Source: Desulfonema limicola (GTDB lineage: Bacteria > Desulfobacterota > Desulfobacteria > Desulfobacterales > RPRI01). Taken from it: a stretch of 37,297 nucleotides of DNA. This document shows positions 2,120 to 31,639 of this stretch, piece by piece. Each line of letters starts with the position of its first letter. The first letter of the stretch is position 1. A program made the translations under genes and the position numbers. The DNA is taken from NCBI GenBank assembly GCA_020723255.1, contig DYJH01000015.1:1-37297 (forward strand), read 5' to 3'. Under the pieces are notes generated by a model that was not told the origin of the DNA, searched no databases, and saw only the letters and a list, made by a program, of their open reading frames with translations.

Positions 2120-2872
2120 TTAATTTGCCTTGTCAGCCCGCATTTGGATTTTAGATTGAATCTCCGTGGATATTTTCTGGCTGGCTTCTGCTAAAGCATC
2201 GGATATAACTGTTTCCCCCCACGCAGTCCTATGCCAATTCCTACCAAAAATGCCTGCATCAAAGATCGCATCAAAGATCGTTATTTTGGCAAAATACCAT
2301 TCCGTTTTCTTATTAAACGTTGTAATTGGCGTTACACCTTTTTCGTTGTTAACATCAATAAGCTGAGAATTAATTCCGATTCTTGTCCAGACCGGCTGAA
2401 CAAATGGAATTATTATAAAGCCCCAGAAATTGGTCTTCCCGTCCGTAACTTTGGTCATGACAAGATATTCCGCCCCCGCATCTTTTGCAGCCTTAAGAGC
2501 CTGATCTTCAAAAATTGGCGACCGGGAATTTTCATTAGCCATTTTTGTGTCATATCCAATTTTACCAAGGTCTTCGCATATACTTCTGGCAATGTAATGT
2601 GATACCGGAAGCGATTGACCTGCCGCATCTCTGGCATAAAAACTAACCGGCAACCAGTAAGATACGCCCTGGCCAATCCTGTCCGGAGACTCTCCATCCC
2701 TTGAATCTCCAATATCTGCAACCATTATACTTGTTGATTTGCTTTTATCCAGGGCGGTCAAGTTATGGCTTGGAGTATGTTGAAGGGCAACAGAACAAGC
2801 GTTAAGCATAAGTAACATGAAAACAGAAACCACGAGCAACAGCATCTTTTTAGTACAGAATGATCTTAACAT
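2120..2872 (-). CDS. Predicted lipoprotein with CsgG/YajG-like domain
   Basis: 250 residues. GGAGG lies 4 bases before the ATG. The N-terminus is a lipoprotein signal peptide with lipobox LNAC, so Cys26 would be acylated and the protein membrane-anchored in the periplasm. The body (residues ~45-245) starts with a beta strand IMVADIGDSRD, then an alternating alpha/beta pattern with AGAEYLVMTKVTDG and a final helix. This outline recalls the CsgG/YajG/LpoB class of periplasmic nucleotide-binding-like folds; this is a pattern judgement, no diagnostic motif was seen. Its upstream region carries the same 21-base motif as the sigma-factor operon at 12402, which suggests co-regulation. Function unknown. 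Confidence 0.75.
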   Translation of the reverse strand: MLRSFCTKKMLLLVVSVFMLLMLNACSVALQHTPSHNLTALDKSKSTSIMVADIGDSRDGESPDRIGQGVSYWLPVSFYARDAAGQSLPVSHYIARSICEDLGKIGYDTKMANENSRSPIFEDQALKAAKDAGAEYLVMTKVTDGKTNFWGFIIIPFVQPVWTRIGINSQLIDVNNEKGVTPITTFNKKTEWYFAKITIFDAIFDAGIFGRNWHRTAWGETVISDALAEASQKISTEIQSKIQMRADKAN

Positions 2873-3000: not shown

Positions 3001-3030
3001 GACACCTCTAATAGAAAAATCTTACAAATA
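3001..3030 (-). promoter_or_regulatory. Candidate ECF-sigma promoter of the lipoprotein gene
   Basis: Read on the - strand: TATTTGTAAGATTTT, nine variable bases, then GGTGTC. The same 21 fixed bases with the same spacing occur at 12499-12528 before the sigma-factor operon. TTGTAA and TGTC are 17 bases apart, which fits -35 and -10 elements; TGTC/GTC is a common ECF -10 core. The start codon at 2872 lies about 130 bases downstream. Confidence 0.6.
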
Positions 3031-3100: not shown

Positions 3101-4393
3101 ATGGAAAAGAAAGAAATCATTAAATCTCTTATTCGTGAATTTCATCATAAATCTCTTCCGAAATACCGCACCAGAGAAATTTTGATTCCGTTAAATCTGG
3201 AGAAGGTTATTACGCTTATAGGCTCCAGAAGAAGTGGAAAGACTTTTCTGTTATATCAGATTATTGACCATCTGCTTCAGGAAATAGATAAAACGGCAAT
3301 TGTATATTTTAATTTTGAAGATGAACGCTTAGAACTTATCGACGGTGAAGCTGATCTTATTTTACAGTCTTACAGAGAACTTTATCCGAACCACAATCTG
3401 ACGTCCTGTTATTTTTTTTTTGATGAAATACAAAATCTTCCGGGGTGGGAAAAATTTGTTCGAAGGCTTTACGACACAGTTTCGCGCTATATTTTTCTTA
3501 CCGGTTCCAACGCAAAATTACTTAGTTCCGAAATATCGACGTCCTTACACGGACGAAGTATAAGTTTTGAGGTCTTTCCGTTAAGTTTCAGGGAATATCT
3601 GTCTTTTAACGACATACCAATCGACTTTTATCTTCCGGATATAAAAGGAAATATTTATAACGCCCTTGAAATATACCTTGAATTCGGCGGGTTTCCCGAA
3701 TTGGGAACAATTGCCGACCCCAATATTAAATACAGGATTCTTCAGGAATATTTTGATGTGATGCTTTTTAGAGATCTTGTCGAGCATTATAATATTAATA
3801 ATCTGATTTCTTTGAAATTTTTTTTAAAGCGAGTTTTTGGCTGTGCAACCAAACAGATTTCGATCAACCGTATCTATAACGATCTCAAGTCCACCGGAAT
3901 TAAAATTGGTAAAAACAGCCTATATGAATTTCTGGAACAGGCGGAATCGATATTTCTTTTACAAACATTAAAAAAATACTCTCCAAAACTTTCCGTGCAG
4001 GAATTTGGAGAAAGAAAAATATTTATTATAGATAATGGATTGCTAAATTCGGTGGTTTTTAAGTTTTCCGCTGATAGGGGTAAAGCAATGGAACAGGTTG
4101 TATTCTGGGAATTGCGCAGAAGGGGTAAATCACTTTTTTTTCTTAAAAACGGATATGAGTGTGATTTCGCCATTATATCTAAATCCGGCGAGATTAACGA
4201 AATTATTCAGGTTTGCAGCGATATTAGTGATTCTCGCACCCTATCCCGTGAAGTCAGGGGAATCAGCACAGCTTGTAAACGATTGGGTATTTCTCAAGGG
4301 ACTATCATAACCTATGACAGGAAGGACCAAATAAAAGTGGGTGATATCAGCATTAGTCTGATTCCGCTGCCGGTTTTTCTTTTAGCACAGTGA
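3101..4393 (+). CDS. AAA ATPase with DUF4143 C-terminal region
   Basis: 430 residues. Walker A GSRRSGKT at 41-48, Walker B YFFFDE at 105-110, sensor-like LTGSNA at 134-139, then HGRSISFEVFPLSFREY, the usual linker of this family. The DUF4143 part (about 200-430) has GNSLYEFLEQAE-like text and, near the end, E..VFWEL, YECDFAII and EIIQV, which resemble a PD-(D/E)XK nuclease core with Q in place of the usual acidic/Lys pair. The family is common in bacteria and archaea, often in variable regions; cellular role unresolved. The start fits the family N-terminus, yet no ribosome site precedes it. It is the only + strand gene in the left half and converges on the outer-membrane gene with 9 bases between stops. 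Confidence 0.88.
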   Translation: MEKKEIIKSLIREFHHKSLPKYRTREILIPLNLEKVITLIGSRRSGKTFLLYQIIDHLLQEIDKTAIVYFNFEDERLELIDGEADLILQSYRELYPNHNLTSCYFFFDEIQNLPGWEKFVRRLYDTVSRYIFLTGSNAKLLSSEISTSLHGRSISFEVFPLSFREYLSFNDIPIDFYLPDIKGNIYNALEIYLEFGGFPELGTIADPNIKYRILQEYFDVMLFRDLVEHYNINNLISLKFFLKRVFGCATKQISINRIYNDLKSTGIKIGKNSLYEFLEQAESIFLLQTLKKYSPKLSVQEFGERKIFIIDNGLLNSVVFKFSADRGKAMEQVVFWELRRRGKSLFFLKNGYECDFAIISKSGEINEIIQVCSDISDSRTLSREVRGISTACKRLGISQGTIITYDRKDQIKVGDISISLIPLPVFLLAQ

Positions 4394-4402
4394 ATATATC
4401 CT

Positions 4403-5782
4403 CTAAAAATACACAATCACTGACGAATAAACCGTATGCTCATTCACATCCTGTGAAAAATCCAGATACTCCAGATAAGATTTCCCCACATTGCTTCCGA
4501 AGCGGTACTGGTAAGCAATATCAAAAACAAAGCGCTCAAAAACAATACCGGAGCCAAGGCTGAATCCGAAGAAGTCATCCACACCGTTCACTGCCGGGGC
4601 CGGATCGTAAAATATGCCGGCTCTTAGAGGAACGACATATTCATCACCAATAAACAGGTATTCCGCACCCATGCGAAACTGCCGGGTGGGATCAAGCCAG
4701 GATTCATCTGCATTTTTACCTGTGATGGGATTTTTCTTTTTACCCTTTGAATCTTTTAATACAAAATCATCCCACTCGGTTCGGTAAATATCTGCGGAAA
4801 CCGTAAGATTGTCTGAAAAACGGTAGGAAAACCCTATTCCAAATGACATAGGCATATCCATTTTCTGATTTTCGCTTTGCTGGGAAAAAAAGGTAAGGTT
4901 CTGTTCCGGAAAATCAGGGAAAGTCCAATCTGTCTGCTCGATAGCATCAAAGTCAATTTCTGCGGTAAACGGCGTTTTGAACACTGCCCCTATGGTAAGC
5001 CGGGGTGTGGCATTCCACAGAAATCCCAAGTTTAAATTAAACCCCTCAAATGAGGAGTTTTCCTTTTTGTAATAAGTGTAGTTAAAGTCCGCTCCGTGTC
5101 CACCACCAAAATCCAAATAACCTTTACTGTGAATATTGCTTTCTTTTTTCCAGCCGCTCTTTGATATGTAATCTCCCCAAAAATTTAAGGTCATTCCCAA
5201 TGACAAATAAGGAGTTGCCTGTATGGCGTACGCCAGACCTATGGCCGATAGTTTACCCCACTGGTCAAATTTTATATTTTCAAATGTGCTGACATTTTCC
5301 GCACCGTAGAATAATCTATAATCCCACGATTTTGTAAAATCATAAAGGTGCTGATAATTCAGCGATACAACTATATTACGGTTAAACAGCGTGAAAGGAT
5401 AAGCCACGCTCATATAATTTAGATTTGATTCGGAAATATTCTGTTTCCCGCAAGCTTCAGGATTTAAGCCAAAACTGTTGTCTTCCGTCCGGTAAAGAGA
5501 TGCGCCTACAATGGAAATCTCAGGCCTTTCAAGCTGAATCAGCCCGCCCGGATTCCACGAAGCAGCAGTGGCATCGTCGGCAACGGCGATAAACGCCCCG
5601 CCCATGCCCAAAGCACGCGCCCCTGAACCTACCGGGTTAAAAGACGATGGAATTTCCAAATGTTGTCGTTGAAACAGATCGCTTCCCGGTGTTGTGGATG
5701 GAAGCATAAAAATGCCGGCAATGAAACAGATAAAATATACCGGCACTTTGAAACCTTTATTGATGTGAATTTTTCTGCGCAT
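4403..5782 (-). CDS. Outer-membrane beta-barrel protein, PorV/OmpP1-FadL-like
   Basis: 459 residues. A signal peptide (about 1-33) is followed by FNPVGSGARALGMGGAFIAV and DDATAASWNPGGLIQL, the hallmark N-terminus of the PorV/UPF0164/OmpP1-FadL group. The rest is alternating short amphipathic strands (YLSLGMTLNFWG, PLRAGIFYDP, FVFDIAYQYRFG) and the chain ends in aromatic VIVYF, as outer-membrane barrels do. AAGGAAA precedes the ATG. It is the last gene of the sigma-factor operon, 8 bases after the cyclase-CHAT gene. It may move hydrophobic or signalling molecules through the outer membrane, or help surface export as PorV does; neither is shown by sequence. A decayed paralogue 3' end lies at 16640-16704. 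Confidence 0.85.
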   Translation of the reverse strand: MRRKIHINKGFKVPVYFICFIAGIFMLPSTTPGSDLFQRQHLEIPSSFNPVGSGARALGMGGAFIAVADDATAASWNPGGLIQLERPEISIVGASLYRTEDNSFGLNPEACGKQNISESNLNYMSVAYPFTLFNRNIVVSLNYQHLYDFTKSWDYRLFYGAENVSTFENIKFDQWGKLSAIGLAYAIQATPYLSLGMTLNFWGDYISKSGWKKESNIHSKGYLDFGGGHGADFNYTYYKKENSSFEGFNLNLGFLWNATPRLTIGAVFKTPFTAEIDFDAIEQTDWTFPDFPEQNLTFFSQQSENQKMDMPMSFGIGFSYRFSDNLTVSADIYRTEWDDFVLKDSKGKKKNPITGKNADESWLDPTRQFRMGAEYLFIGDEYVVPLRAGIFYDPAPAVNGVDDFFGFSLGSGIVFERFVFDIAYQYRFGSNVGKSYLEYLDFSQDVNEHTVYSSVIVYF

Positions 5783-8700: not shown

Positions 8701-8973
8701 GCCCATGATGACTAAAACCTTACCGCCATGATTTTCAATTATGGGGAAAACAATATCATGATGCTTTTGCATCCAGGCTCTGCCAAGTATGTCTCCGTGT
8801 TTATCCATATAGGCGGTATAGCCGCAAACGTCGGTAAAAACGATGGCCATTTTTTTACTGAATTTTTCATTCAGCACCTGGTCTAACTTCGCCCTTTCCT
8901 GAAGAACCTGTTCAATATTGTTAATCGCCATACCCGGTTCCTGTTTTTTTTCATACTTATTATTATCCGGCAT
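5791..8973 (-). CDS. Class III nucleotide cyclase - CHAT protease - TM - TPR - CsgG-like fusion
   Basis: 1060 residues. Domains in order: class III cyclase (~40-205); linker (~206-330); CHAT caspase-like protease (~330-590) with catalytic His446 (FAGH) and Cys489 (NACQSA); one membrane helix (~632-654); TPR helices (~664-800); CsgG/TolB-N-like domain (~850-985); small beta domain (~995-1058; IVDIGEDAGIVKGQQF). The helix implies cyclase and protease in the cytoplasm, TPR and CsgG-like parts in the periplasm. Cyclase metal ligands Asp48 and Asp92 and transition-state Asn152 and Arg156 are present. Positions that choose the base (Val88, His145) match neither adenylate (Lys/Asp) nor guanylate (Glu/Cys) cyclases. 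AGGAG lies 7 bases before the ATG, which overlaps the anti-sigma gene by 11 bases. Probably an envelope-sensing protein with protease output; substrate unknown. Confidence 0.9.
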   Translation of the reverse strand: MPDNNKYEKKQEPGMAINNIEQVLQERAKLDQVLNEKFSKKMAIVFTDVCGYTAYMDKHGDILGRAWMQKHHDIVFPIIENHGGKVLVIMGDGLMCSFEDTLLAVKSCVEAQKALGGHNGKVSSEDEIHVSIGINAGKILVDNQHIAGDAVNVASRIESVAGKDEILVSEDVYEEIRGSNDILCRFHDSVSVKGKTQKLNLYRVVWRDEDIGGRVETRTRATEEEVRKITKRPASQFYLEIEKMEDGVKVGSFEQLVGETSTVRLYEEIPVSMDRIHQRCHEIVDTLNRANRQGRLNREILTNLKEIGQMFFDDLIPTNIKEKLRQTKSDHLVVNIDDYMALVPWELMHDGKEFLCQRFSMGRLVRTKQNFIGTAKVRALGQPLKMLILADPRGDLKEAYNEGIYVRDFLDQSKNIINATFLSENIEPDYLQKKIRNFDIVHFAGHMDYDENNRDKCGWRLTKGIFSAGDVIKMTGTATMPAFIFSNACQSALSDTWNLSEKFHGQIFSLASAFILSGVRHYIGTFWEILDEPSRRFAMDFYQNVLSGQSVGEALRLSRLTQIKEYGEEKITWASYMLYGDPTFNYMEQIRSVEAAEEAPGLESKSISETITRAEENVIDFGRQSTQKKNNKILITAAIASIIAIAFLGWYFGFIRTDTTSRQKEIRQLYAMAEYDSAIRACEILQKKDPNVRMSYLVEGDIYFRKGNIEEARKNYQAALKAQKGSASEQAEAYLGLGRIASINKNTDMSIDYYQKATQIDPANESGYLAQGLILDEKGQPDQALSVFEKAGRMAPDNRIIASMTGQTRKKAELVKDREKKEKIDKLVKELIDRMKGPQTAVLTNDWKSKPLTLWIMDFSTQGYSLQEAGEKLLTAGITDQMLSDGRIRLVERALLDALMEELKLGTSQLADKKTALSLGKILAARLILSGNIIYAGPQTQVSIRIIETETGKITAAANETFGSALPVYEMSAIIAQALTRKINTAYPLRGSILNSKENLAIVDIGEDAGIVKGQQFKIINSDVVLEIVSAQKEQSEAKIIKGALSLEKGQRVEQIINAS

Positions 8974-9631
8974 CCGGTGTCTCCTTTATCTCAAATGGAT
9001 AAATACCGATATTTTTACCGTTTCGACTAAATACCATAGCATAACAACCATATGGGATATGGCTGAATACCTTTGTACCACCCGGATCAAGTAAATACGA
9101 CAAAAGATCCCTGTCTTTTTTTCTAAGAGTTACACGCAGGTTATCATTATTTTTCACGTCTTTCATGATGGTTACCCGGATATCGACATGTTGATCATTA
9201 ATCTTTTCGATCTCAATCATTGTTTTAATTTCCTGAAAATCCAGATTAACACGAATCAGATCCCGGAAAATGATTTTTTCAGGTCCTCTTACGGGTTGAA
9301 GACGGGGCGGCACACCAAAAAAAGCGTTTAAATAATCCGATGTTTCCAGAAGCATATGAGTAGCGGATCTTTTAATTTGACGCACAACCGATAGTATTTT
9401 GCTTGAATTCCGGTTTCGGATTAAATCCATAATATTTTGCACAAGCTTTTCCGAAACCTTACCTTGTTTATCCTTATTATATGCAACACCTATTATTTTC
9501 AAAGCCGCCAGCTCGTCAAGGCAAATTTTACAATCGGAAAAATGGGTCTCAAGTTTGATTTTTTGTTCATCTGAAAGAGATCCCTGTAAATAATCGGCAA
9601 TGGTTTCTTCCTGCGGGCATGTGTTTTTCAT
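8963..9631 (-). CDS. Zinc-finger (ZAS-type) anti-sigma factor
   Basis: 222 residues from the ATG at 9631, which has AGGA six bases upstream. A GTG at 9718 would add 29 unrelated residues without a ribosome site, so the shorter form is preferred. The N-terminus has the zinc anti-sigma pattern: Cys5, then His30-x3-Cys34-x2-Cys37 within LETHFSDCKICLDELAAL. No membrane helix is visible; residues ~110-222 are beta-rich and end in a domain with DLLSYLLDPGGTKVF and GCYAMVFSRNGKNIGIYPFEI, so the protein is probably soluble rather than a membrane-bound anti-sigma. It sits 117 bases after the sigma gene and overlaps the cyclase-CHAT gene, so it should bind the ECF sigma factor. How it is released is not visible; the adjoining CHAT protease is an obvious candidate. 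Confidence 0.8.
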   Translation of the reverse strand: MKNTCPQEETIADYLQGSLSDEQKIKLETHFSDCKICLDELAALKIIGVAYNKDKQGKVSEKLVQNIMDLIRNRNSSKILSVVRQIKRSATHMLLETSDYLNAFFGVPPRLQPVRGPEKIIFRDLIRVNLDFQEIKTMIEIEKINDQHVDIRVTIMKDVKNNDNLRVTLRKKDRDLLSYLLDPGGTKVFSHIPYGCYAMVFSRNGKNIGIYPFEIKETPDAG

Positions 9632-9748
9632 AAATTTTCCTGTATATTGTATTAAGTCCAATTGCGGGTTATCCTGGCCAACTTCCCCACTCTCCTTGCT
9701 CTTTATATATATAGACACAGTTATTTTATGTTTCTTACATATAAGACT

Positions 9749-10369
9749 CTAATCATTCCCGGTCTGTTCCTCATTCATAATAATTTCTCTTAAACTGGAA
9801 ACAGCCCGATGCTTAAGCGTATAAGCGCTGCCCATGGTTAATCCCATTGTCTCAGCCACGTCTTTTAAAGAAAGGTTGTTTTCAATATGAAGACGCAAAA
9901 ACATCCGGTCTCTTGCAGAAAGCTTTTTCAATCCTTTCTGCACCCGTTTTTCACTTTCCATTCTTATCATAAGATCTGTAATCCCGGGCTCATTTGCTTT
10001 TAGATCTTCAATATCTTCAAGGTATTGCCGGTTTTGATGAGATCCGTTAATTTTTGAAAATTTTTGCCGGATATCATTCAGCACGATTCGCACAGTCACC
10101 ACACGCAGCCACGTGGCAAGGCTACAGCCGTTTAACCCTTTGTACTGATGAAGTTTCTTACAATCATTTTCTATCAGTTTTATAAAAACAGTATTGTGCA
10201 GATCTTCAATGTCCTGTTGATTGGACCATACATTTTTAGCGGCAAGAGTCTTACTCACAGTATTACATATCAGAGGAGAAAAACGCCGGATAAAATCTTC
10301 CAGGGTTTTTTTGTCACCCAAAAAGCATTTATCAAGCATCTGCCTGTCTTTTAAAATACCGGCTTTCAT
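9749..10369 (-). CDS. ECF-type RNA polymerase sigma factor
   Basis: 206 residues. Region 2 spans about 24-106 (EDFIRRFSPLICNTV, IEDLHNTVFIKLIEN, LATWLRVVTVRIVLNDIRQ). Region 4 spans about 140-196 with an HTH in SLKDVAETMGLTMGSAYTLK. There is no region 1 or 3, as expected for an ECF factor. The start overlaps the stop of the upstream gene by ATGA, so translation is probably coupled; the ribosome site is weak. It should recognise the motif at 12499-12528 and 3001-3030 (inference), which would make the operon self-activating. The next gene is its probable anti-sigma factor. Confidence 0.88.
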   Translation of the reverse strand: MKAGILKDRQMLDKCFLGDKKTLEDFIRRFSPLICNTVSKTLAAKNVWSNQQDIEDLHNTVFIKLIENDCKKLHQYKGLNGCSLATWLRVVTVRIVLNDIRQKFSKINGSHQNRQYLEDIEDLKANEPGITDLMIRMESEKRVQKGLKKLSARDRMFLRLHIENNLSLKDVAETMGLTMGSAYTLKHRAVSSLREIIMNEEQTGND

Positions 10370-12402
10370 TCCGTGACGACTTTGTCCATGAGTTTGATTT
10401 TTGAAGTATCGCCCTGTGAGATTTTTGTTTTTGACATGTCTTGCATAACCTGGGTAACGCGCAATCGCCCTAAAATAATATTATCCGAACCGAGCATTTT
10501 CCCGGTTATGGGGTGCCTGATGGGCTCTTCCTTATAAACAATCAATCTTCTGGTAACTTTTACCATACCTTGTCCCAGATCGGTGAATATATCGCTGCCT
10601 TTTTGTTGAACTACCAGGCCAAACGCCATTGGAAACTGCCGGTGAAACTTGATTGCTAACCCGGTGGCCAAAGATGACATGGTTTTTAAATCCTTTCCTT
10701 CATCATATACATCACTTGCAGCTAATATTTCAGAAGTTTCCGCGTCGATCATGCGTGCGACTATCTCCACGCCTTTTCTCGTTTCAACCACTGAGCCGGT
10801 AATGATGGATTGGGCTGCCAAGAGTTTTCCAACCTTAACGGCTGTTTTGTTGTCTATAAGCTTTGTCTTGCTGAGTTGTTGTTCCTGAAGAACAATATCC
10901 AGCTTTTCCCGTTCCACCATATTGAAACGATCCCTTTCGGTAAGGGCATTGATGAGATTATCCTCAAACGAAATGAACGCCTGCGACACCTCGCCGCTTG
11001 CTTCAAAAGGAAGCACCGCCACACCTAAGCGCTCCGAAAGGCTCAAAGCCTTTGGCGTTTTTCTGGTTACGGATGTTTTTTTTGTGGATGTGTTTCCGTT
11101 TTCATCAGTTGCCTTTATTAAAATGACGTTGTCACCTTCATTCAGATCAATGAGCCGGTTGAAAAATATAATTTGACCTTCCCGGCGAAGGACAGGAACC
11201 TGGTTCACAGATACGGAAACGACCTTGTTTTCATCTATGATTTCACCCTCTAAGTATATTTTTTCCATAAAAACGGTTTGGGCATCCGTCCAGCCTTTCA
11301 GATTTATTACGGGCGCCTTTTTATCCTTATTTCCCAGAATGGAGGCCGTTAAAAACTTTGTAGCATCCGAATCCAAAGAAGCCAGCAAATTTGAATGTTT
11401 TTCGGGAAGATCGATCTTTGCAGTGGTGATATTGCCCAGTTTGTCTTCGGCCGTTACTTCCAGAGTATTATCTTCAGGATGAATTGACCGATTGAACTCT
11501 ATCTCTGTTTCTCCATGGGTCGAAATTTCCGAACCGCAAATGCGCAACACTGCAATGCCTGATTCATCTATTGCCGATCCCGATATCCTGACGGTTTTAG
11601 CGTCCCCGCCGGAGTCAGGCGTCAACTCATCTATGCTAATAAACGGGCCGTGCCTGTCCACGTGGATGATGATTTTTTTGTCGGCTTTCTTTTCCAAAAG
11701 ATTTTTAGCCGTAATATTGATATCGTGCCGTCCCTGACCAAGAATCAGTTTCTTTTCAAACTTAACATTCCTTTGCGCCCCATCCATAAACACAAAATCG
11801 TCGCCGACGGAAATGGCGGACACAAAATTCGAATCACCGGCTGTCCCGCTGATAACTACCGGGTCTGCATTGGTCCGGATTTCATCTTGTTGAAGATCAA
11901 GCGCAAGAACAGGCGGCACCACATCTTTTTCTGTTATTTTAATAATCTCTTTTCGAACCTGGTCCAGATAGAATCGGGCTTTTGCGGACGGATACTGGGA
12001 AAGGGATAATTCCAGCAATTTTTTAGCTTCGTCAAGGTTACCCATCTGAAAGCAGATTATGCCAAGTTCGCGGTTGGGAAAGTAGTCGATAAAATGCATG
12101 CCGTAAGTGCGGGCCATCCGTTGATCTTCTCCTCTCTGCTTAATAGCTTCATTTAAATCATTAACCGCTTCGGCAAAAAACTCCCCATCGGCAAAAGAAA
12201 GACTTCTCTCATAATAGTTCCACCACCGGTGTCTGAAAGACCCGGTGACAAGGCCGTATTCCTTCCCGTCCCTGATATATCGCATGGCGGCATTTGCATT
12301 TGACTCTTCGGAATTGATGAAAAGAGATATTAAGCACAATGTAAGAATAATACTCGCAATAGCTGTAAAAGCCGGTATATTTTTACGTTTTGAATTGCTC
12401 AT
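10366..12402 (-). CDS. Membrane-anchored TPR / Ig-like / CsgG-like protein
   Basis: 678 residues. One hydrophobic segment (10-29) is an uncleaved anchor or signal peptide. Then TPR-like helices (~64-150), three Ig-like or bacterial 'glucodextranase B' style beta domains (~163-250, 252-335, 365-447, each ending in DxxGN or a similar turn), a CsgG-like domain (~457-590; LGVAVLPFEASG, FNMVEREKLDIVL, AAQSIITGSV) and a C-terminal beta domain (~595-677). The last two match the order of the C-terminal pair in the cyclase-CHAT protein, so both proteins share a periplasmic module. First gene of the operon; AGGA lies 7 bases before the ATG and the sigma-type motif about 97 bases upstream. Probably an envelope sensor or scaffold; function not known. 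Confidence 0.85.
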   Translation of the reverse strand: MSNSKRKNIPAFTAIASIILTLCLISLFINSEESNANAAMRYIRDGKEYGLVTGSFRHRWWNYYERSLSFADGEFFAEAVNDLNEAIKQRGEDQRMARTYGMHFIDYFPNRELGIICFQMGNLDEAKKLLELSLSQYPSAKARFYLDQVRKEIIKITEKDVVPPVLALDLQQDEIRTNADPVVISGTAGDSNFVSAISVGDDFVFMDGAQRNVKFEKKLILGQGRHDINITAKNLLEKKADKKIIIHVDRHGPFISIDELTPDSGGDAKTVRISGSAIDESGIAVLRICGSEISTHGETEIEFNRSIHPEDNTLEVTAEDKLGNITTAKIDLPEKHSNLLASLDSDATKFLTASILGNKDKKAPVINLKGWTDAQTVFMEKIYLEGEIIDENKVVSVSVNQVPVLRREGQIIFFNRLIDLNEGDNVILIKATDENGNTSTKKTSVTRKTPKALSLSERLGVAVLPFEASGEVSQAFISFEDNLINALTERDRFNMVEREKLDIVLQEQQLSKTKLIDNKTAVKVGKLLAAQSIITGSVVETRKGVEIVARMIDAETSEILAASDVYDEGKDLKTMSSLATGLAIKFHRQFPMAFGLVVQQKGSDIFTDLGQGMVKVTRRLIVYKEEPIRHPITGKMLGSDNIILGRLRVTQVMQDMSKTKISQGDTSKIKLMDKVVTE

Positions 12403-12498: not shown

Positions 12499-12528
12499 GA
12501 CACCACATTTAATAAAATCTTACAAATA
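12499..12528 (-). promoter_or_regulatory. Candidate ECF-sigma promoter of the sigma/CHAT operon
   Basis: On the - strand: TATTTGTAAGATTTT, nine variable bases, GGTGTC, followed by TATTAT. All 21 fixed bases and the spacing equal those at 3001-3030. The start codon at 12402 lies about 97 bases downstream. An ECF operon that is transcribed from its own type of promoter is the usual arrangement. Confidence 0.65.
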
Positions 12529-12959: not shown

Positions 12960-13006
12960 ACTATAACTCGGCCTTTCCCTATGTGAAGGAAAGGCCGAGT
13001 TATAGT
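12960..13006. terminator. Perfect 19-bp stem-loop
   Basis: ACTATAACTCGGCCTTTCC (12960-12978), a 9-base loop, then its exact complement (12988-13006). It lies just after the stop of the VCBS pseudogene. There is no T-run on either side, so it may terminate transcription in a factor-assisted way or be a transposon-related hairpin. Confidence 0.5.
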
Positions 13007-13697: not shown

Positions 13698-14138
13698 TCA
13701 GTCAGCGGAATCCGTTCGCTTCAAATGCAATTTTTCTTCTATACTCTTTAACAGACTTTCAATATCCTTTCTTCCCTTTTTCAGCACATTATAAAGGATA
13801 TCATAATCTATTTTGTCATAATCATGCGTTATTATATTTCTAAAGCCCACCATTTTCACAAGCTCAGCGGTCAATTTTGGTGAAAGAAAGTTTTCCTCAT
13901 TTAAAATATCAAATGCTTCGCTCATTGTTGTGGGCTTCCGGAAACATTTATATGCGATCACAGCCTCCGCCAGATCAATAGCTGCCTGGACTGCAAGATA
14001 GAGATAACGCTCAACAGCTCCCCTAATGTCTATATTTTCTTCGATTTCTTCTTTTTTATAGCTATGGTAACGTTTGAGAATCTTGAGATATTTTTTTGCT
14101 GAGCTTATCTTGTTTTCAATTACTTTTATACCGCTCAT
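13698..14138 (-). CDS. hepT: HepT-like toxin (DUF86 HEPN ribonuclease)
   Basis: 146 residues, mostly helical. The HEPN motif R-x4-H-x-Y is present as RNIITHDY (Arg100, His105, Tyr107). In HepT toxins Arg and His form the RNase site and Tyr is the residue modified by MntA. The start overlaps the stop of the MntA-like gene by ATGA, so the antitoxin is made first. Length and order match known mntA-hepT modules. Such pairs are often found in variable regions such as this one. The downstream neighbour is the decayed stretch at 13.0-13.7 kb. Confidence 0.85.
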   Translation of the reverse strand: MSGIKVIENKISSAKKYLKILKRYHSYKKEEIEENIDIRGAVERYLYLAVQAAIDLAEAVIAYKCFRKPTTMSEAFDILNEENFLSPKLTAELVKMVGFRNIITHDYDKIDYDILYNVLKKGRKDIESLLKSIEEKLHLKRTDSAD

Positions 14139-14533
14139 ATCGGAGCCTTTGTTAAATTATATTTGGCCAGCATTATATGAAAATCAAAATATTCATTAAG
14201 GATTCGGGGTTCGACAAGCACTTTATATGGCTTCTTCTCATAAATTAAACGGCCCTCTTTTATAATCAGATATTTGAGATCCGGGTTATCAGTTAAATTT
14301 AAAACAACCACATCTATCCTGTCGGTTATCAGCAGTCTGCTGATTTTAACGATCATATCAATTTTGATCTCGTATATTTTTTCTTTTTCCCTGGTGCCAA
14401 GGTAAACGGCAAAATCATAATCGCTCAATTTACTATGTTCCTCTCTTGATCTGGATCCAAAAAAGTAAACAAGTTTTATCTCAGGATAGGTCTTAAAAAA
14501 TGCTTTGAGTTTTCGTATTTCTTCCCGGGTCAT
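14135..14533 (-). CDS. mntA: MntA-like nucleotidyltransferase antitoxin
   Basis: 132 residues. The minimal nucleotidyltransferase motif GS-x10-D-x-D is complete: FGSRSR...LSDYDFAVYLG with Gly26, Ser27, Asp38, Asp40. A further strand, RIDVVVLNL, may bear the third acidic residue. In characterised pairs MntA transfers AMP to a Tyr of HepT and blocks it. Gene order and ATGA overlap with HepT support that pairing. The ATG at 14533 is preceded by no strong ribosome site (only TTAAGTC-type sequence). Forms its own transcription unit on the - strand. Confidence 0.85.
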   Translation of the reverse strand: MTREEIRKLKAFFKTYPEIKLVYFFGSRSREEHSKLSDYDFAVYLGTREKEKIYEIKIDMIVKISRLLITDRIDVVVLNLTDNPDLKYLIIKEGRLIYEKKPYKVLVEPRILNEYFDFHIMLAKYNLTKAPI

Positions 14534-16617: not shown

Positions 16618-16639
16618 AGAAACCTCGTTATCAAATTGT

Positions 16640-16704
16640 ACAATCACTGACTAATAAGCCGTATGCTCACTAACATCCTGTGAAAAACCCAGATGCTCCG
16701 GACT
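16640..16704 (-). pseudogene. 3' remnant of a paralogue of the outer-membrane gene at 4403-5782
   Basis: About 65 bases match 4413-4477 with few differences. Translated in the same frame they read PEHLGFSQDVSEHTAY, stop, SVIV, against LEYLDFSQDVNEHTVYSSVIV in the intact protein. A TAG replaces a Ser codon. Nothing of the rest of the gene remains to the right (16705-16857). Confidence 0.7.
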
Positions 16705-16857: not shown

Positions 16858-17631
16858 TTAGTTATTTCTTCCCATTTGCATCATTCTTGTTCGTGTTCTT
16901 GGCGAAATATATGGAGCAGCCGGATCGGGAGCTGCCGCATTTATCGTTACAGCGTCATCAGCAACCGGTTCGGTTCCTGATGTTGAAGGCAGAACTTGCA
17001 TCGGCATAGAGTTCGTCACTTCCGGTTTTTCAGCAGTTGACGGGAAAGCCGGCTTCCTTATATTTGCAGCGGACTTGATACCCGTCAAAACTTTGGAGGA
17101 ATCCTGTGTTTCTCTTGTTTTCGGCTTTCCGGAATCTATCAGATTAACAGTCATCTTATTTTCACCCTTAACCAGTTCAATCTTATTATCGTCTATATCG
17201 GTAAGGGTATAACCGCTTATAACGCTTCCCTTCTTAAGAACCAGTTGCCTCCTGCCTCTTCCCGGTGTGTTGTATGGCGCTTTTTTATCCTCCAGATATG
17301 CGTAACTTTCATTATCCGTAATAAGAATTCCATAAAGAACAATCTCAGGAGGAGGAACAGGAGGAGCGGTAGTCTTTTCTGCAGGAATAACTCTGTCCGG
17401 ATGAAAAAGATTCTGCTCTGCTACCATAATAAATTCGGAAATGGACGGGATCTGCTCCACATCCTGTTTTTTGTCTTCTTCTATAACTGCCTCCGGGCTT
17501 TTTGGCACATTGAATTTAATGCTTGTATTTAATACAGGCAAGACATCATACCTGATCAGAAAGACAAGGGAGATAATAAGGGTAATATTAAGAAGATGGA
17601 TGCTTTTAACAATATATTTAAAAAATCGCAT
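16858..17631 (-). CDS. gspC: GspC-like inner-membrane protein of type II secretion
   Basis: 257 residues. A short cytoplasmic N-terminus, one membrane helix (~13-30), then a periplasmic part with the HR-domain pattern: EQNLFHPDRV (~72-81), PPPEIVLYGILITDNESYAYLEDKK (~93-117), KKGSVISGYTLTDIDDNKIEL (~134-154). That is the GspC homology region that contacts the secretin N0 domain. There is no PDZ domain; the C-terminal 80 residues are low-complexity (Pro, Ala, Thr). Last gene of the gsp run, 3 bases after gspM; in the usual order gspC comes first. Together with gspM it completes the inner-membrane platform. Confidence 0.75.
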   Translation of the reverse strand: MRFFKYIVKSIHLLNITLIISLVFLIRYDVLPVLNTSIKFNVPKSPEAVIEEDKKQDVEQIPSISEFIMVAEQNLFHPDRVIPAEKTTAPPVPPPEIVLYGILITDNESYAYLEDKKAPYNTPGRGRRQLVLKKGSVISGYTLTDIDDNKIELVKGENKMTVNLIDSGKPKTRETQDSSKVLTGIKSAANIRKPAFPSTAEKPEVTNSMPMQVLPSTSGTEPVADDAVTINAAAPDPAAPYISPRTRTRMMQMGRNN

Positions 17632-17634
17632 AGG

Positions 17635-18189
17635 TTACCTTGCAGCAGTAATGGCCGATACTTTTAATTTCACCATAAGTTCCTTCGGGTCCCGGAAATT
17701 TTTAACTCTTGTGTCAAACTCTTTTACTACAAGATAAGGCGTTTGTGTCTCAATTGCATAAAGAGTATCGCCCAACGCCCTGGTGTCAGGCATAGACATG
17801 TCAATGGTAATGCTTATCTTTTTAAAACTATTGTAATCCTCAGGTTTCTCAACCCGCTCGCTGTATATAGCGCCGCCCCTCGCAGTAATTATTCCCTTAA
17901 CAGCATTCTGCAAAGATGCTGCGGCAATAGCTATGGTTTGCCCGTCTATAATTTTATCATTATCGGCTTTCCTGATATCTTTCAGCAAGGACAGCCTTTT
18001 CTCCAGTTTGGGTTTACGTGCAACCATTGCCATATATTTTTTAAGACTCTTTGTCTTGAATGTTTTCATTTCTTCAATTGAAGACACCTCATGCCTGATC
18101 CTTAAGAAACCGTATTGATAAATGAATATGCCCAGAAGTATTATTGTAAACGGTACTGTAATGACTAAAATTTTACTTTTGTGTCTCAC
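17635..18189 (-). CDS. gspM: GspM-like type II secretion platform protein
   Basis: 184 residues. One N-terminal membrane helix (~8-28), a coiled-coil stretch (~35-75), then a periplasmic ferredoxin-like domain (~90-182; GGAIYSERVEKP, FKKISITIDM, ALGDTLYAIETQTPYLVVKEF, ELMVKLKVSAI). That is the layout of GspM/PilO partners of GspL. The start overlaps the gspL stop by ATGA. Weak sequence conservation is normal for GspM; position in the operon supports the call. Confidence 0.75.
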   Translation of the reverse strand: MRHKSKILVITVPFTIILLGIFIYQYGFLRIRHEVSSIEEMKTFKTKSLKKYMAMVARKPKLEKRLSLLKDIRKADNDKIIDGQTIAIAAASLQNAVKGIITARGGAIYSERVEKPEDYNSFKKISITIDMSMPDTRALGDTLYAIETQTPYLVVKEFDTRVKNFRDPKELMVKLKVSAITAAR

Positions 18190-19721
18190 TTTTTCGCAGC
18201 CTCTTTTTTATCCTTTTCGCTGCCTCTGATCTCCATCTTAATTGCAAACCGGTCAACATTCTTTCTGGGATCTCTTGTGGTTGTTGAGGCAAATTCGGCT
18301 TTGTTGAAATATGAAGATGCTTCCAGTTTCGGCAGGATATCTGTAGCAGCTTCGGCATAACCTTCAATTTCAACTGTTGTTTCAGTAATTTTTATTCTTG
18401 TCAGCCATGCTTTCGCGGGAAGTATGATAGTCAGCTCCTTAAGAATCGGCAAATACATGGGGCTATTGTGTTTAAAATTATGAACCGCTTGGATTTCACT
18501 TTCCAGCGATTCCGTTTCCTTTTTTATTTCTTCAACTTTTCCTGCTTCATCTTTAATCAACACAATCTGTCTGTCAATCTCAGCAAGCCTTTGCTTTTCC
18601 ATCTTAAATGGCATAATGACATGAAAAACACCAATTGCTGAAATGACCAGCATAAGAAAGATGCTTAAAGCCAAAGGAGTTTTGGATTGCCTGTGAGTTC
18701 CTTTGCAGAGCAGGTCAGGTTTTACTGCTTTTGATTGTAAAGACTCCAGCATTCCACCGGCTGAGATTAATGGCGCCTTTTTTATGTCCTGATGGCTTTT
18801 CCCGGCAAGCGAAAGCTTAAAATCCATATGGCCAAGGTTACAAACAGACATCGAAAGCTTGTGCTCAGGAATTACTCCCGCTCCGTTTAGGAAATCAGCT
18901 ATTATCTTCAAGGGCTTGCCATACCCGCTGTGAGCAGTAATCATAGCATTGATCTCTTTAACAAGAGTTTCGTCATATCCGGGCTTTTCATTTTCACTAA
19001 AACTGCCTGTAAACCCTGCTGAGATCGAACCGTCTGTTATGAGCCCGCCTTCATAACCATATTTGGTTGTCTGCACAAAAATGAAATCCGATTTTTGATC
19101 CATATGGCTCAAAAGTGCGCCTATCCCGGAAAGGTTTACAGTTACTCTTTTCACCTGAATATCTTTAACTGCAAGCGATTCGATGTATCGATTTACAAGC
19201 TCGGCTTTTGCAGCAATTAAAAGCAGGCAGATCTTATCATCTTTTTCGTTTTTTATAGTAAAATCGTATAAGGCGTTTTCCGGAGAAAAAGGCGTCAGTC
19301 TGTCAAGCTCAAAAGAAACGGCGCTTGAGAGTTCTTTTTTAACAACAAGAGGAAACTCAACAAGCCGGATAATAGCCCATGACTTGGGAATGCTGAGTGT
19401 TATATCGCTTTTATTTGTTCCAAGCTCATTTACAGCAGAAAAAACATTTGAAGCGAAATCCTCAGGATCAGGACAGCAGCCATTTTTAAAGAGAATATCT
19501 TTAAAACCTATAATTCTGATGCGGGATAAAAACTTTGAACCGTAACATATTCCAATTCTATCTGCTCCGATAGAAATGCAAAGATTTTTTCCCGGAATAA
19601 TAGCTGCATCCGCAAGGCTTGCGGTCAGCAATTTCCACATCAGGCGTCCTGTGTTGCCAAGCCCGGAAAATATAAATGTTAAAAAGGTTTTAAGTTTTTC
19701 AAGTTGTATTATTTGTTTCAA
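18186..19721 (-). CDS. gspL: GspL-like protein (PilM-like plus PilN-like parts)
   Basis: 511 residues. Residues ~45-330 form an actin-like PilM/GspL cytoplasmic domain (LCISIGADRIGICYG, ITLSIPKSWAIIRLVEFP, SAVSFELDRLTPFSPENA). A membrane helix spans ~349-371. A coiled coil (~375-415) leads to a periplasmic PilN/GspL-like ferredoxin domain (~425-500; ILPAKAWLTRIKITETTVEI). GspL couples the GspE ATPase to the platform. Seven bases separate it from gspK; it overlaps gspM by 4. Confidence 0.85.
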   Translation of the reverse strand: MKQIIQLEKLKTFLTFIFSGLGNTGRLMWKLLTASLADAAIIPGKNLCISIGADRIGICYGSKFLSRIRIIGFKDILFKNGCCPDPEDFASNVFSAVNELGTNKSDITLSIPKSWAIIRLVEFPLVVKKELSSAVSFELDRLTPFSPENALYDFTIKNEKDDKICLLLIAAKAELVNRYIESLAVKDIQVKRVTVNLSGIGALLSHMDQKSDFIFVQTTKYGYEGGLITDGSISAGFTGSFSENEKPGYDETLVKEINAMITAHSGYGKPLKIIADFLNGAGVIPEHKLSMSVCNLGHMDFKLSLAGKSHQDIKKAPLISAGGMLESLQSKAVKPDLLCKGTHRQSKTPLALSIFLMLVISAIGVFHVIMPFKMEKQRLAEIDRQIVLIKDEAGKVEEIKKETESLESEIQAVHNFKHNSPMYLPILKELTIILPAKAWLTRIKITETTVEIEGYAEAATDILPKLEASSYFNKAEFASTTTRDPRKNVDRFAIKMEIRGSEKDKKEAAKK

Positions 19722-19728
19722 AACTCTC

Positions 19729-20691
19729 CTAAGCAGGGCTCTTATAATAAACCGTCCGGGCCTTGTTATTATTCTCTATAATAACCGATGATTTGATAGA
19801 GTAACATTTCTTTCTTTCTGTCATATAGCCGGCAGCATCAATTGTATAAATATTTGAATCCATCACCCCGATATATGGCGCCATTATATCATATCCCTTT
19901 CCCATAACTGTCTGCATGTGAGCAATAATATTCTCAGGCTCTGGATCTCTAAGCGTTATGATGTCCTCAGCAAGCTCGGCAGTAAATCCGGGTATTGCCA
20001 TTAATACCTCAATTGAAGCTGACTTAATATTTATCACATTTGTATTTGAATATATCGTAAGAGAGTTGGCTATGCCCTTCTTCTTCGCTCCATCACCATA
20101 CAGTATCTCCAAAGTCATTCCCTTGACAAGAAGCAGTTCTTCAAGCGTATCGAATTTACTATTCTTTGATTTGTAAGGGTTCGGCAGGGACATATAGTAA
20201 TCGCTTTCAGCGCCACTTAGCCTGTGCAGTTCGTCTTCATCTTTCCAATCCAAAACTGAATCTGCAACCGTATTCGCCTGCTCTTCCGAAAGACCATAGT
20301 TAACCAACAGATTAAAAAATATGATGCGAGTATTGTCCGATAAATAATTTATATTAATTTTTCCAGACTCATCTTTGATGCTGAAAGAGTAATAGCCCTT
20401 ACCTGCTCTTCCGGAATATTCCGTACCGTCAGTTTTGAGCACTTCCCGGCCTTCAAGCACAATTTTTTGATCTTTATTTGTGTTACGGTAAAATATTTCC
20501 ATAATACTTCTTTCTATCCCTGCTTCGGCCAGAAATTTATTTGCCATATCTTCCTTGAAAGATAATGTTGAATATACTTCCGATCTTACAGCCAAAGAAA
20601 AAGAGAGTACCATTACAGTTAGAAATGTAAGAACCCAAATAACCATAAGCAGGGCAATGCCCTTCTGGGAGGAATTAGGCGGCCTCTTCAT
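19729..20691 (-). CDS. gspK: GspK minor pseudopilin
   Basis: 320 residues. A type IV prepilin leader ends at Gly11, followed by IALLMVIWVLTFLTVMVLSF. As in GspK generally, residue +5 of the mature chain is not Glu. The large C-terminal domain (~45-315) carries T2SSK text: ADSVLDWKDEDELHRLSGAE, LPNPYKSKNSKFDTLEELLLVKGM. GspK with GspI and GspJ forms the pseudopilus tip. It overlaps gspJ by 4 bases (ATGA). Confidence 0.9.
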   Translation of the reverse strand: MKRPPNSSQKGIALLMVIWVLTFLTVMVLSFSLAVRSEVYSTLSFKEDMANKFLAEAGIERSIMEIFYRNTNKDQKIVLEGREVLKTDGTEYSGRAGKGYYSFSIKDESGKININYLSDNTRIIFFNLLVNYGLSEEQANTVADSVLDWKDEDELHRLSGAESDYYMSLPNPYKSKNSKFDTLEELLLVKGMTLEILYGDGAKKKGIANSLTIYSNTNVINIKSASIEVLMAIPGFTAELAEDIITLRDPEPENIIAHMQTVMGKGYDIMAPYIGVMDSNIYTIDAAGYMTERKKCYSIKSSVIIENNNKARTVYYKSPA

Positions 20692-21347
20692 TTTATTAAG
20701 GTTCCTCTTGCTCTTAAGGGTATAATAACAGAAAATTTTGTTACCCCTTTTACAATATTAATCCTTATTTTTTCAGGGATATTATTTCCTGCTGTCCATT
20801 CCGATATCCATTTTTCTTGTTCTGTGGAATTCTTGTCAAAATAATCAAAACATATTTCTTCGAGAGCATCAAAAAGCTTTGCCTCTCTTTTGGCTGATAA
20901 CCCGATTGTATTTTCCGTTACATATAAAGCCTGCTTTCCGAATTCATCCGACTCTATTCTATAGGCAGCTATAGTATAACCCAGATGCCCACCCCACAAG
21001 GAATAATTTGTCGAAAATTGCAGTGTTTTTCCGTCTCCCTTGAAATAGAAAGTTCTGCCGTCTTCTCCATCATAGGATAGCGGAACTTCCGATTGAAGCT
21101 GAGCATCAACGATGCTGAGAGATGACCTGAAACGTTCCAGGGAATCCATTTTTTTTTCGCCTGCGTTAATTGAACGATACCCAAGTCTTATAGCACTTCC
21201 GGCTATGGTAATGATAAGCACAAGTATGGAAATGGAAATCAGCAGTTCAATAAGAGTAAAGCCTAAATCATTGAACCCATGCTCCGCTTTCCTTTTACCT
21301 TTTACCTCGCACCTTGAACCTTTCACCTTTTTCCTTTCCGTTCTCAT
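20688..21347 (-). CDS. gspJ: GspJ minor pseudopilin
   Basis: 219 residues. Prepilin cleavage follows Gly29: NDLG, then FTLIELLISISILVLIITIAG with Glu at +5. The body matches the GspJ class (FRSSLSIVDAQLQSEVPLSYD, FKGDGKTLQFSTN, EEICFDYFDKNS). The leader is unusually long (29 residues) and Lys/Arg/Gly-rich because its DNA (21290-21335) consists of degenerate AAGGTxxA-type repeats. No better internal start was found; the ATGA overlap with gspI favours this ATG. Confidence 0.85.
   Translation of the reverse strand: MRTERKKVKGSRCEVKGKRKAEHGFNDLGFTLIELLISISILVLIITIAGSAIRLGYRSINAGEKKMDSLERFRSSLSIVDAQLQSEVPLSYDGEDGRTFYFKGDGKTLQFSTNYSLWGGHLGYTIAAYRIESDEFGKQALYVTENTIGLSAKREAKLFDALEEICFDYFDKNSTEQEKWISEWTAGNNIPEKIRINIVKGVTKFSVIIPLRARGTLIK
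21290..21335. repeat. Degenerate AAGGT-type repeats in the gspJ leader
   Basis: On the - strand AAAGGTGAAAGGTTCAAGGT continues as GCGAGGTAAAAGGTAAAAGG: five or six copies of a 7-8 base unit. It codes for the leader KVKGSRCEVKGKRK of GspJ. Confidence 0.5.
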
Positions 21348-21910
21348 ATCTCTTTTAAAGATTCCAATTGCGATTCGGATTTGTCAACAATTTTAAAAGA
21401 ATTTAAAGTCAATGCTTTTTCCCTGTTTCCATGCTGCCAGTGAACAGTCAGATCAACTTCCAGAAGCTTTACCCGCAGGTTTTCGGTCCGGTCCGGAAGA
21501 ACATCGGAAACCATCAGGTCTATCCTGTAGCCGTCATCTGTAACCTCGCTTACAGATTGCTCTTTTAATTGGTCATCGTCAAGAACCTGTCTCATTCTGG
21601 TTTCTGCCTTTATAGCCGCATTCACATAATTGCCCGATGCCGATATAGATACCAGGTTTACCGAAAAAAGCTGTATTACATATGTTACTGCAATGCCCAT
21701 TATGGCAAGAGCCACAAGTATTTCAAGCAGCGTAAATCCATTAGAGAGACCTTTGGAAAACGCCCTCTTTTGTATAACAATCTTTTTTATCCGATTAACC
21801 CTGAACCTTTGACCCCTCACCCTAACCCTCTCCCGCAAGGGGAGAGGAGGCTCGAATCCTCGACCCCTTGAATCCTTTTTTTTACCAGGCGGGTTATGAA
21901 CCACCCCCAA
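21344..21910 (-). CDS. gspI: GspI minor pseudopilin with repeat-derived leader
   Basis: The core is a prepilin: NGFTLLEILVALAIMGIAVTYVIQLF, then a small GspI domain ending DLTVHWQHGNREKALTLNSFKIV. The longest frame (188 residues, ATG at 21910) places PLPLRERVRVRGQRF in the leader, which is a translated dispersed repeat (21811-21850). A GTG at 21820, inside that repeat and preceded by GAGAGG at good distance, would give a 158-residue protein with a 29-residue leader up to Gly; it seems the likelier start. It overlaps gspJ by 4 bases. Confidence 0.8.
   Translation of the reverse strand: MGVVHNPPGKKKDSRGRGFEPPLPLRERVRVRGQRFRVNRIKKIVIQKRAFSKGLSNGFTLLEILVALAIMGIAVTYVIQLFSVNLVSISASGNYVNAAIKAETRMRQVLDDDQLKEQSVSEVTDDGYRIDLMVSDVLPDRTENLRVKLLEVDLTVHWQHGNREKALTLNSFKIVDKSESQLESLKEI
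21811..21850. repeat. Dispersed CCCTCACCCTAACCCTCTC-type repeat within gspI leader
   Basis: Reads ccctcaccctaaccctctcc then cgcaaggggagaggag, with CCTCTCCC / GGGGAGAGG forming a hairpin. This is a repeat known from many proteobacterial genomes. On the - strand it is read in the gspI frame. A second arm fragment lies near 2932. Confidence 0.65.
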
Positions 21911-21946
21911 CCTTCTTTCCGGCCCCTGATCCCCGAACCCTGACCC

Positions 21947-22438
21947 CTATTTTATAATCACCGATCCGACTACAGGATCTGTCCGTATATTTAATTGTTT
22001 CTTATTATTCCAGAGCACTATGTTTTCACCTCCGGCAGATCCGGTTGCAGGATAAACCATGATATATTTACCGGTTGAAATCTCTCCTGAAACAGGATCA
22101 ACCACCTTTATGCTTACATCTTTTGGGATAATCCTGCTGTTGCGGCCTTCAATGCGATACAGTCTTGAGTCAAGGTCAATGGTAACAATCTGTTTTTCAT
22201 GGTTTATACGGGCAAGAGACTTGGCATATCTCATAATTGCAGCTATTTCTCTTGCAGTTGACTCGATCCTTGCAGATGCCAGACCGCCGGAGAAATAAAC
22301 CGTTGACAAGCCAAGTATCAGTGTAATGAAAAAAAGTACAACCAGCATTTCTATAAGAGTAAACCCAAAATTATTAAATTCCTGTTTTAGATTTTTTATT
22401 CGAGACATTAGCGTATTGCTTATTATTGTTCTTATCAA
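21947..22438 (-). CDS. gspH: GspH-like minor pseudopilin
   Basis: Up to 163 residues. Prepilin cleavage site NNFG then FTLIEMLVVLFFITLILGL, with Glu at +5. The body (STAREIAAIMRYAKSLARI, QIVTIDLDSRLYRIEG, GGENIVLWNNKKQLNI) is typical of GspH. The longest frame starts with TTG at 22438; an ATG at 22408 would give 153 residues with a 15-residue leader. Neither has a clear ribosome site. It follows gspF by 23 bases. Confidence 0.8.
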   Translation of the reverse strand: MIRTIISNTLMSRIKNLKQEFNNFGFTLIEMLVVLFFITLILGLSTVYFSGGLASARIESTAREIAAIMRYAKSLARINHEKQIVTIDLDSRLYRIEGRNSRIIPKDVSIKVVDPVSGEISTGKYIMVYPATGSAGGENIVLWNNKKQLNIRTDPVVGSVIIK

Positions 22439-22461
22439 CTTACGAACTAATAAACTATTTT

Positions 22462-23655
22462 TTACATCGGCAAATCTGTAATGCTGAATATCCCTACAAG
22501 CATTGAAATCACAATAAAACCTACTACAAGTCCCATAGTAAGAATCATGAAGGGTTCCAGAAGGCTCATAAACCGCTTGACGGTCTCACGCAGAGTTTTT
22601 TCATAAGCTGAAGCCACTTTAAGAAGCATATCATCAAGCTGGCCGCTGTCTTCCCCAACCTTTATCATAGACAATGCCAGAGTCGGAAATACCTTTGCCT
22701 CTGTCAGCGGGGCCACGATGCCCCTGCCTTCCTTTGTTCCTTTTGAAACTGCGCTGAGCGCTGAAGCAAAAACCTGATTGCCGATAACCTCTTTAGCGTT
22801 GTTTAATGCCTGGATAAGCGGAACACCGCTTTTAATAAGCATACCAAGTGTTCTGCAGAATCTGGCGGTTTCAAGCTTTGCGATCAAATCTCCAAAAAGT
22901 CTGAACTTTACAGCGTCCCACCTATACCGGCCTTTTGGAGTCGAAATATAATATTTAGCCAATATCCATCCTATAATTACTGCCGGTAAGAGCACCCACC
23001 ATATTGCTTTAACAGCGTTGCTTGCCGATATAAGAATACGGGTAGGCAATGGCAATGCGCCCCCAAGTTCAGCAAAAATCGTTGAAAATTTTGGAAGAAC
23101 AAATGCTATCAGGACAATTAAAGAAATACCCCCAGTGATTACCAGTATGGCCGGATAAATCATTGCTGAAATGATATGATCCCGCAATTCCTTTGAAGAT
23201 TCTAAAAATTCATTCAGTTTTTCCAGCACGACGTTCAATACCCCGCTCGCCTCACCGGCTCTGACCATATTGATATAAAGACGCGGAAATGTCCTGGGAT
23301 GTTTCATAAGAGCATCTGAAAAAGAACTTCCTTCTCTGACTGATTGCTGAAGAGACCGAACAATGCCTTTCATCCCGCTGTACTCAGTTATGTTTGAGAT
23401 TATATTGAGGCTTTTGTCCAGCGGCAAGCCTGCATTTATAAGCACTGACAGTTGCCCTGTAAATGTTTGAATATCCGCTTTTGCGGAGCTTATACCTGAT
23501 TTAGACTTGAAGGTTTCTTTCTTTGCGGTTATTTTTAAAGGAATAACCCCGCTGTCTTTCAACCTCTCGATTGCGCTTTTTTCATCCGCTGCTTCGATAA
23601 CGCCTTCAAGAATATCACCGCTTCTTGTTGATGTCCGGTATGAAAATACTGCCAA
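22462..23655 (-). CDS. gspF: GspF inner-membrane platform protein
   Basis: 397 residues, the usual GspF length. Two homologous cytoplasmic helical domains (~68-190 and ~270-390; FTGQLSVLINAGLPLDKSL and FCRTLGMLIKSGVPLIQAL) alternate with three membrane segments (~165-193, 218-240, 370-392). N-terminal FSYRTSTRSGDILEGVIEA is a family signature. It starts immediately after gspE stops (23656). GspF forms the platform core above the GspE ATPase. Confidence 0.95.
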   Translation of the reverse strand: MAVFSYRTSTRSGDILEGVIEAADEKSAIERLKDSGVIPLKITAKKETFKSKSGISSAKADIQTFTGQLSVLINAGLPLDKSLNIISNITEYSGMKGIVRSLQQSVREGSSFSDALMKHPRTFPRLYINMVRAGEASGVLNVVLEKLNEFLESSKELRDHIISAMIYPAILVITGGISLIVLIAFVLPKFSTIFAELGGALPLPTRILISASNAVKAIWWVLLPAVIIGWILAKYYISTPKGRYRWDAVKFRLFGDLIAKLETARFCRTLGMLIKSGVPLIQALNNAKEVIGNQVFASALSAVSKGTKEGRGIVAPLTEAKVFPTLALSMIKVGEDSGQLDDMLLKVASAYEKTLRETVKRFMSLLEPFMILTMGLVVGFIVISMLVGIFSITDLPM

Positions 23656-31623: not shown

Positions 31624-31639
31624 GCTATTTTCCTCAATC

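Follow-up and report, generated by a model that had tools for sequence, protein, structure and literature searches.

A conserved two-block motif, very probably an ECF sigma factor promoter, in a sigma/zinc anti-sigma/CHAT cassette of Desulfonema limicola

The window analyzed here, i.e., the whole 37,297-nt stretch of Desulfonema limicola DNA, carries a minus-strand operon encoding, in this order, a TPR/Ig-like/CsgG protein, an ECF sigma factor, an HxxxCxxC protein, a CHAT protein, and an outer-membrane barrel (Table 1). The sigma factor has the make-up of the ECF (group IV) type, with regions 2 and 4 only and a short linker between them; TIGR02937 spans its residues 23-195, and its Sigma70_r2 match is weak and below cut-off. 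The HxxxCxxC motif encoded beside the sigma gene is that of zinc anti-sigma (ZAS) factors and was found in 36 of 36 relatives. A GTG start at 9718 is unlikely for this protein because most aligned relatives start matching near 9631, and the ATG at that position was taken instead. As in Craspase-like loci, a CHAT domain with a His-Cys pair adjoins the sigma and inhibitor genes, and this pair (His446-Cys489) is kept in every relative covering both residues.

Table 1 Cassette genes, downstream lipoprotein gene, and motif sites in the window
Feature	Coordinates	Strand	Basis
First operon gene	10366..12402	-	TPR, Ig-like, and CsgG/FlgO-like domains; N-terminal membrane or signal segment
ECF sigma factor, 206 aa	9749..10369	-	TIGR02937 69 bits vs cut-off 42.9; Sigma70_r4 above cut-off
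Soluble zinc-type anti-sigma (HxxxCxxC)	8963..9631	-	zf-HC2 below cut-off, E 0.012; no membrane segment
Cyclase-CHAT protease-membrane segment-TPR-CsgG protein, 1060 aa	5791..8973	-	Nucleotide cyclase domain; His446 and Cys489
Outer-membrane barrel (OmpP1/FadL, PorV-like), cassette member	4403..5782	-	Domain matches; present in relatives' cassettes
Orphan lipoprotein downstream of site B	2120..2872	-	LNAC lipobox in translation
Site A, putative ECF promoter of operon	12499..12528	-	Exact pattern; rank 2 in window by relatives-only matrix
Site C, TGTAAGAAACATAAAATAACTGTGTCTAT, putative internal promoter between sigma and anti-sigma	9711..9739	-	Same place in relatives; matrix rank 1
Site B, before lipoprotein gene	3001..3030	-	Fixed bases identical to site A; matrix rank only 6

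The lipoprotein had no Pfam match and no homologue in 58 relatives, and its single-sequence structure prediction (mean pLDDT 39) was too poor for use. Divergent from its gene lies an AAA/DUF4143 ATPase gene (3101-4393) with a strong match to the PADLOC candidate defence model PDC-S01 (E 1e-102). Upstream of the cassette, the window includes an intergenic, terminator-like inverted repeat (12960-13006; 19 bp, perfect, loop of 9 nt), and a HepT/MntA type VII toxin-antitoxin pair is encoded at 13698-14533, both members scoring above the NCBIfam cut-offs. A 70-nt stretch from the 3' end of the outer-membrane gene (4406-4475) recurs with 86% identity beside an FG-GAP gene (16633-16702), probably as the remnant of a duplication.

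An earlier note on this DNA had described a bipartite motif, TATTTGTAAGATTTT-N9-GGTGTC, before both the sigma operon and the lipoprotein gene, with 21 fixed bases and the gap length shared and the nine gap bases different. This description was exact at the minus-strand coordinates given: the window contains exactly two matches (sites A and B), where none was expected in shuffled sequence, and the two 30-mers share 24 of their 30 bases (all 21 fixed ones and 3 of the 9 in the gap). Markov sequence simulated at the composition of the window (30 Mb) contained no stretch matching site A at more than 18 of the 21 fixed bases; the next-best real match within the window reached 15. Across the whole assembly (3.67 Mb in 217 contigs, 87% complete, the window being contig 169), only these two exact copies were detected, along with two matches carrying 3 mismatches, and a control with the reversed pattern gave 0 matches genome-wide. 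The two 3-mismatch matches were set aside as weak, one running into the antisense of a TerC-like gene and the other lying ~345 nt before a 308-aa ORF. Looser patterns (14 fixed bases, 2 mismatches) yielded chance numbers in this genome once the window sites were left aside (18 vs 20 in the control).

Two near-identical stretches 9.5 kb apart could in principle also be a dispersed repeat or the end of a mobile element, with copies inserted between genes at two places. A search of nine other genomes of the genus for the ECF cassette yielded weak generic sigma matches only, so that the region may indeed have been acquired. Against a copied repeat, the likeness of sites A and B ends at the two blocks, with unlike flanks on either side, and relatives retain the blocks only, at a fixed functional place; we thus consider this origin extremely improbable.

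The sigma factor and the same neighbours occur in other families of the order, at ~27-46% identity. Desulfonema magnum, a culturable relative, also has the cassette. In these relatives, an element of the form TGTAAGAAA-N13-YGTCTAT is located in the gap between the sigma and anti-sigma genes, some copies overlapping the sigma stop codon (TG-TAA-GAAA). When the region around the sigma stop (from -60 to +250 nt) was searched for TGTAAGAA/GTCTAT (≤2 mismatches, exact spacing), the element was detected in 20 of 51 cassettes, the window included, compared to 0 for the reverse-strand control and 0-2 for other spacings. It was present in 14 of the 15 sigmas nearest to the window's on the tree, the exception being L036. 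About half of all 51, chiefly those of another sigma branch, are without it in this form. Some loci were retrieved when the motif was already established. Of these, L176, L177, L178, L194 (labelled Tectomicrobia), L195 (Thermodesulfovibrionia), L197, and L201 agreed with it, whereas L196 had 3 mismatches and L198, L199, L200, L203, and L204 showed no fit. The element also stands before the first operon gene, i.e., before omp where omp leads, in L090, L091, L093, L096, L097, and L098, and upstream of the operon with a spacing of 18 in L035; each of these operon-upstream elements outscored all 200 shuffles. An initial impression of non-conservation, the region before the csgG-like gene being empty in the first relatives inspected, was discarded when the site was found in the sigma/anti-sigma gap and before omp. 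Overall, place, orientation, and spacing of the element are the same in other families and, for a few records, in other phyla.

The window has its own copy in this gap, site C, which has the form TGTAAGAAA-N13-TGTCTAT, was found by the looser genome scan, and is separated by 79 nt from the anti-sigma ATG (9631). When a weight matrix derived from 19 relatives, with the window excluded, was applied to ~74,600 window positions, site C ranked first, site A second, and site B sixth. Since this matrix holds no window sequence and still places C and A on top, these two sites are backed independently of each other. Site A consists of TGTAAG (12519-12524) and TGTC (12499-12502) followed by TAT, and is separated by 96 nt from the ATG (12402) of the first operon gene; site B lies 128 nt before the lipoprotein ATG at 2872. 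The earlier note was therefore close on gene distances, which it had put at 97-130 nt, and right that both of its copies are real, but it had overlooked the third, diverged site between sigma and anti-sigma. Its 21-base extent stood only in part: the core shared across relatives is TGTAAGA(A)-N-YGTC(TAT), and the outer TATT, like a TTTT common to both copies, falls outside the family consensus. Within the sigma coding sequence, at about 9880-9921 on the minus strand, TGCAAGAGACCGGATGTTTTTGCGTCTTC took matrix rank 3 (17.6 bits, codirectional), a score unmatched in 6 Mb of random sequence; it may be a further internal promoter or a coincidence.

Site B is the weakest of the three and less certain than A and C, as the case for it comes from its identity with site A. 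Its sixth rank is mainly due to its GTCAAT, which stands in place of the GTCTAT of site A and lacks the family's CTAT. With such a -10 half, and with a downstream gene that has no homologue in relatives, site B might be a coincidental match or a relic and play no part in lipoprotein expression, A and C being ECF promoters all the same. We regard this as unlikely, although it deserves more weight than any other alternative: all 21 fixed bases equal those of site A, 30 Mb of simulated sequence contained 0 matches at ≥19/21, orientation and distance are right, and extra sites in the genomes G284 and G381, near or outside the cassette, also precede secreted-looking proteins.

We next compared the sites with the sigma phylogeny. 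In the sigma tree, a quick tree with SH-aLRT support only, cassettes with GTCTAT and cassettes with GTGTAT (L038, L039, L043, L050, L103, and L106, grouped from their site sequences) are separated by a single branch, and the -10 half thus seems to change with the sigma lineage. On the separate branch, the gap of L038, L039, L043, and L106 holds a variant element, TGTAAGAAATTTYTRYT..CCKGTGTAWT. Same-genus genomes without the sigma showed no excess of sites over the control.

Footprinting reveals a conserved site and not the identity of the protein bound to it, so the two blocks might belong to another DNA-binding regulator of these genes, e.g., a response regulator or activator, with transcription starting from ordinary sigma-70 promoters close by. 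By inspection, neither copy had a TATAAT-like -10 at 16-18 bp from TTGTAA, and a sigma-70 promoter at the motif itself was rejected. The site is neither a palindrome nor a direct repeat, has one fixed spacing, and is always codirectional with the gene; it resembles ECF promoters in form, accompanies this sigma family, and varies in its -10 half along with the sigma branch. Besides the sigma and anti-sigma, no conserved regulator gene was seen in the cassettes. Another regulator consequently appears improbable, and from conservation, orientation, spacing, and agreement with the sigma phylogeny we infer that the reader of the sites is this sigma rather than another factor.

A larger set of sites was found in one relative, the genome with matching contig PEAL01000035 (isolate ER2bin7; G047), with 28 sites compared to 1 in the control at ≤1 mismatch, none of the 28 lying within an ORF of ≥100 aa. 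Many are 20-270 nt before genes, including those for pseudopilins, PilM, a CheA-type kinase, a sigma-54 activator, a Ser/Thr kinase, a cNMP-binding protein, and a cadherin-domain surface protein. The 28 include a few that do not count independently, since L139/L145 have a contig-end sequence in common and L143/L144 precede paralogues, and any of the five sigma paralogues of this genome could read the 28 sites. A whole-genome scan, proposed in the earlier note as a check, turned out as predicted, but the set in the window's own genome is small and local. As a separate observation, genes for pseudopilins and PilM carry an ECF site in G047, and the window also encodes pseudopilins and PilN/PilM-like proteins, within a type II secretion-like set (16858-27077, with GspD, E, F, and K) that is followed by a polysaccharide export gene (28630-31662) and then YjbH (32395-34425).

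Taken together, the motif is very probably a promoter recognized by the ECF sigma factor of the cassette, at A and C and, less certainly, at B, a reading drawn from sequence comparison. This is the reading that the earlier note had favored, and it gains support from phylogenetic footprinting, the -10 variant of the other sigma branch, and the intergenic set of G047. TGTAAG(A) would act as the -35 and YGTC(TAT) as the -10, with 16 bases between TGTAAG and NGTC; the resulting TGTAAG-N16-YGTC, at fixed spacing across 20 cassettes, has the form of an ECF promoter. A point against this reading is that the -35 consensus TGTAAGAA has TAAG at the place of the AAC known from textbook ECF promoters. AAC/CGT is listed as a hallmark of the first ECF groups studied, and the defining features were later restricted (PMC8103513). 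Autoregulation is common among ECF factors (PMC8103513), and the cassette is consistent with it, sites A and C of the window occupying the same places in relatives. Site A would drive the whole operon, creating a positive feedback. From site C, active sigma would raise the inhibitor and the CHAT protein but not itself, a negative feedback that could shut the response off. Site B would place the neighbouring lipoprotein under the same control.

How the sigma factor might be released is suggested by its neighbours. The transmembrane CHAT protein may use a periplasmic TPR/CsgG part to sense an envelope condition, and the CHAT protease, on the cytoplasmic side, may then cut the soluble zinc anti-sigma, freeing the sigma. 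Cleavage is proposed because of the invariant His-Cys pair of the CHAT domain, the HxxxCxxC motif retained throughout the relatives, and the Csx29-Csx30-CASP-sigma precedent, and by this analogy we consider an envelope-sensing CHAT protein that cuts the anti-sigma about evenly poised between right and wrong. The PDB sigma match 8z6g was considered as a possible CASP-sigma and dismissed, as it appears in an AlgU-MucA paper instead. More tentatively, the cassette may be an undescribed signalling module, found across Desulfobacterota and in a few further phyla, whose target genes are marked by the motif. Its CHAT protease, similar in kind to Csx29 but membrane-spanning and CRISPR-free, would sense the envelope and cleave the zinc anti-sigma, and an internal promoter would replenish the cleaved inhibitor and the protease whenever sigma is active.

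Autoregulated ECF promoters are a class already known; what this analysis would add is a concrete promoter sequence and wiring, i.e., an operon promoter and an inhibitor promoter, for an ECF sigma family that is widespread in sulfate-reducing bacteria and related groups. No description of this combination was found in the literature consulted, which did not include the main ECF classification paper, and the one paper retrieved by a text search combining TGTAAG with ECF and GTC dealt with CRISPR regulation in Marinomonas. For ECF promoters, a 16±1 spacer with CGTC is established, and the ECF41 promoter reads TGTCACA-n16-CGTC (PMC3426412). Like ECF41, the present element has two blocks, a spacer of 16, and a group-specific -35 with a CGTC-like -10 upstream of the sigma's own neighbourhood. 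It differs in its -35 (TGTAAGAA), in a -10 extended to YGTCTAT, and in being associated with a separate zinc anti-sigma, where ECF41 has a fused C-terminal domain. In C. glutamicum, a SigH-dependent promoter serves rshA, the anti-sigma gene, alone, and its proposed role is to shut down the response (PMC3489674). This resembles the internal sigma-type promoter for the anti-sigma proposed here, but the C. glutamicum sigma gene is on housekeeping promoters, whereas in the window a second sigma-type site stands in front of the entire operon; the proteins also belong to different families. ECF54 likewise links CHAT-domain proteins to an ECF sigma, with proteolytic control proposed and no anti-sigma (PMC8999054), whereas a zinc anti-sigma is encoded here and in relatives covering that place. 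Finally, in Craspase the TPR-CHAT protease Csx29 cuts Csx30, the inhibitor of the ECF factor CASP-sigma (PMC10028731). As in that system, an ECF sigma, an inhibitor, and a TPR/CHAT protein with a His-Cys pair share one locus that contains several sigma sites. Unlike in Craspase, the searched genes of the window included no noticeable Cas7-11 or other CRISPR gene, the CHAT protein is membrane-spanning with a cyclase domain, the inhibitor is of the zinc-finger type, and its cleavage is put forward by analogy. The sigma/zinc anti-sigma/CHAT neighbourhood resembles a CRISPR-free Craspase chain; it could show CHAT protease action outside CRISPR and, perhaps, the origin of the Craspase signalling chain.
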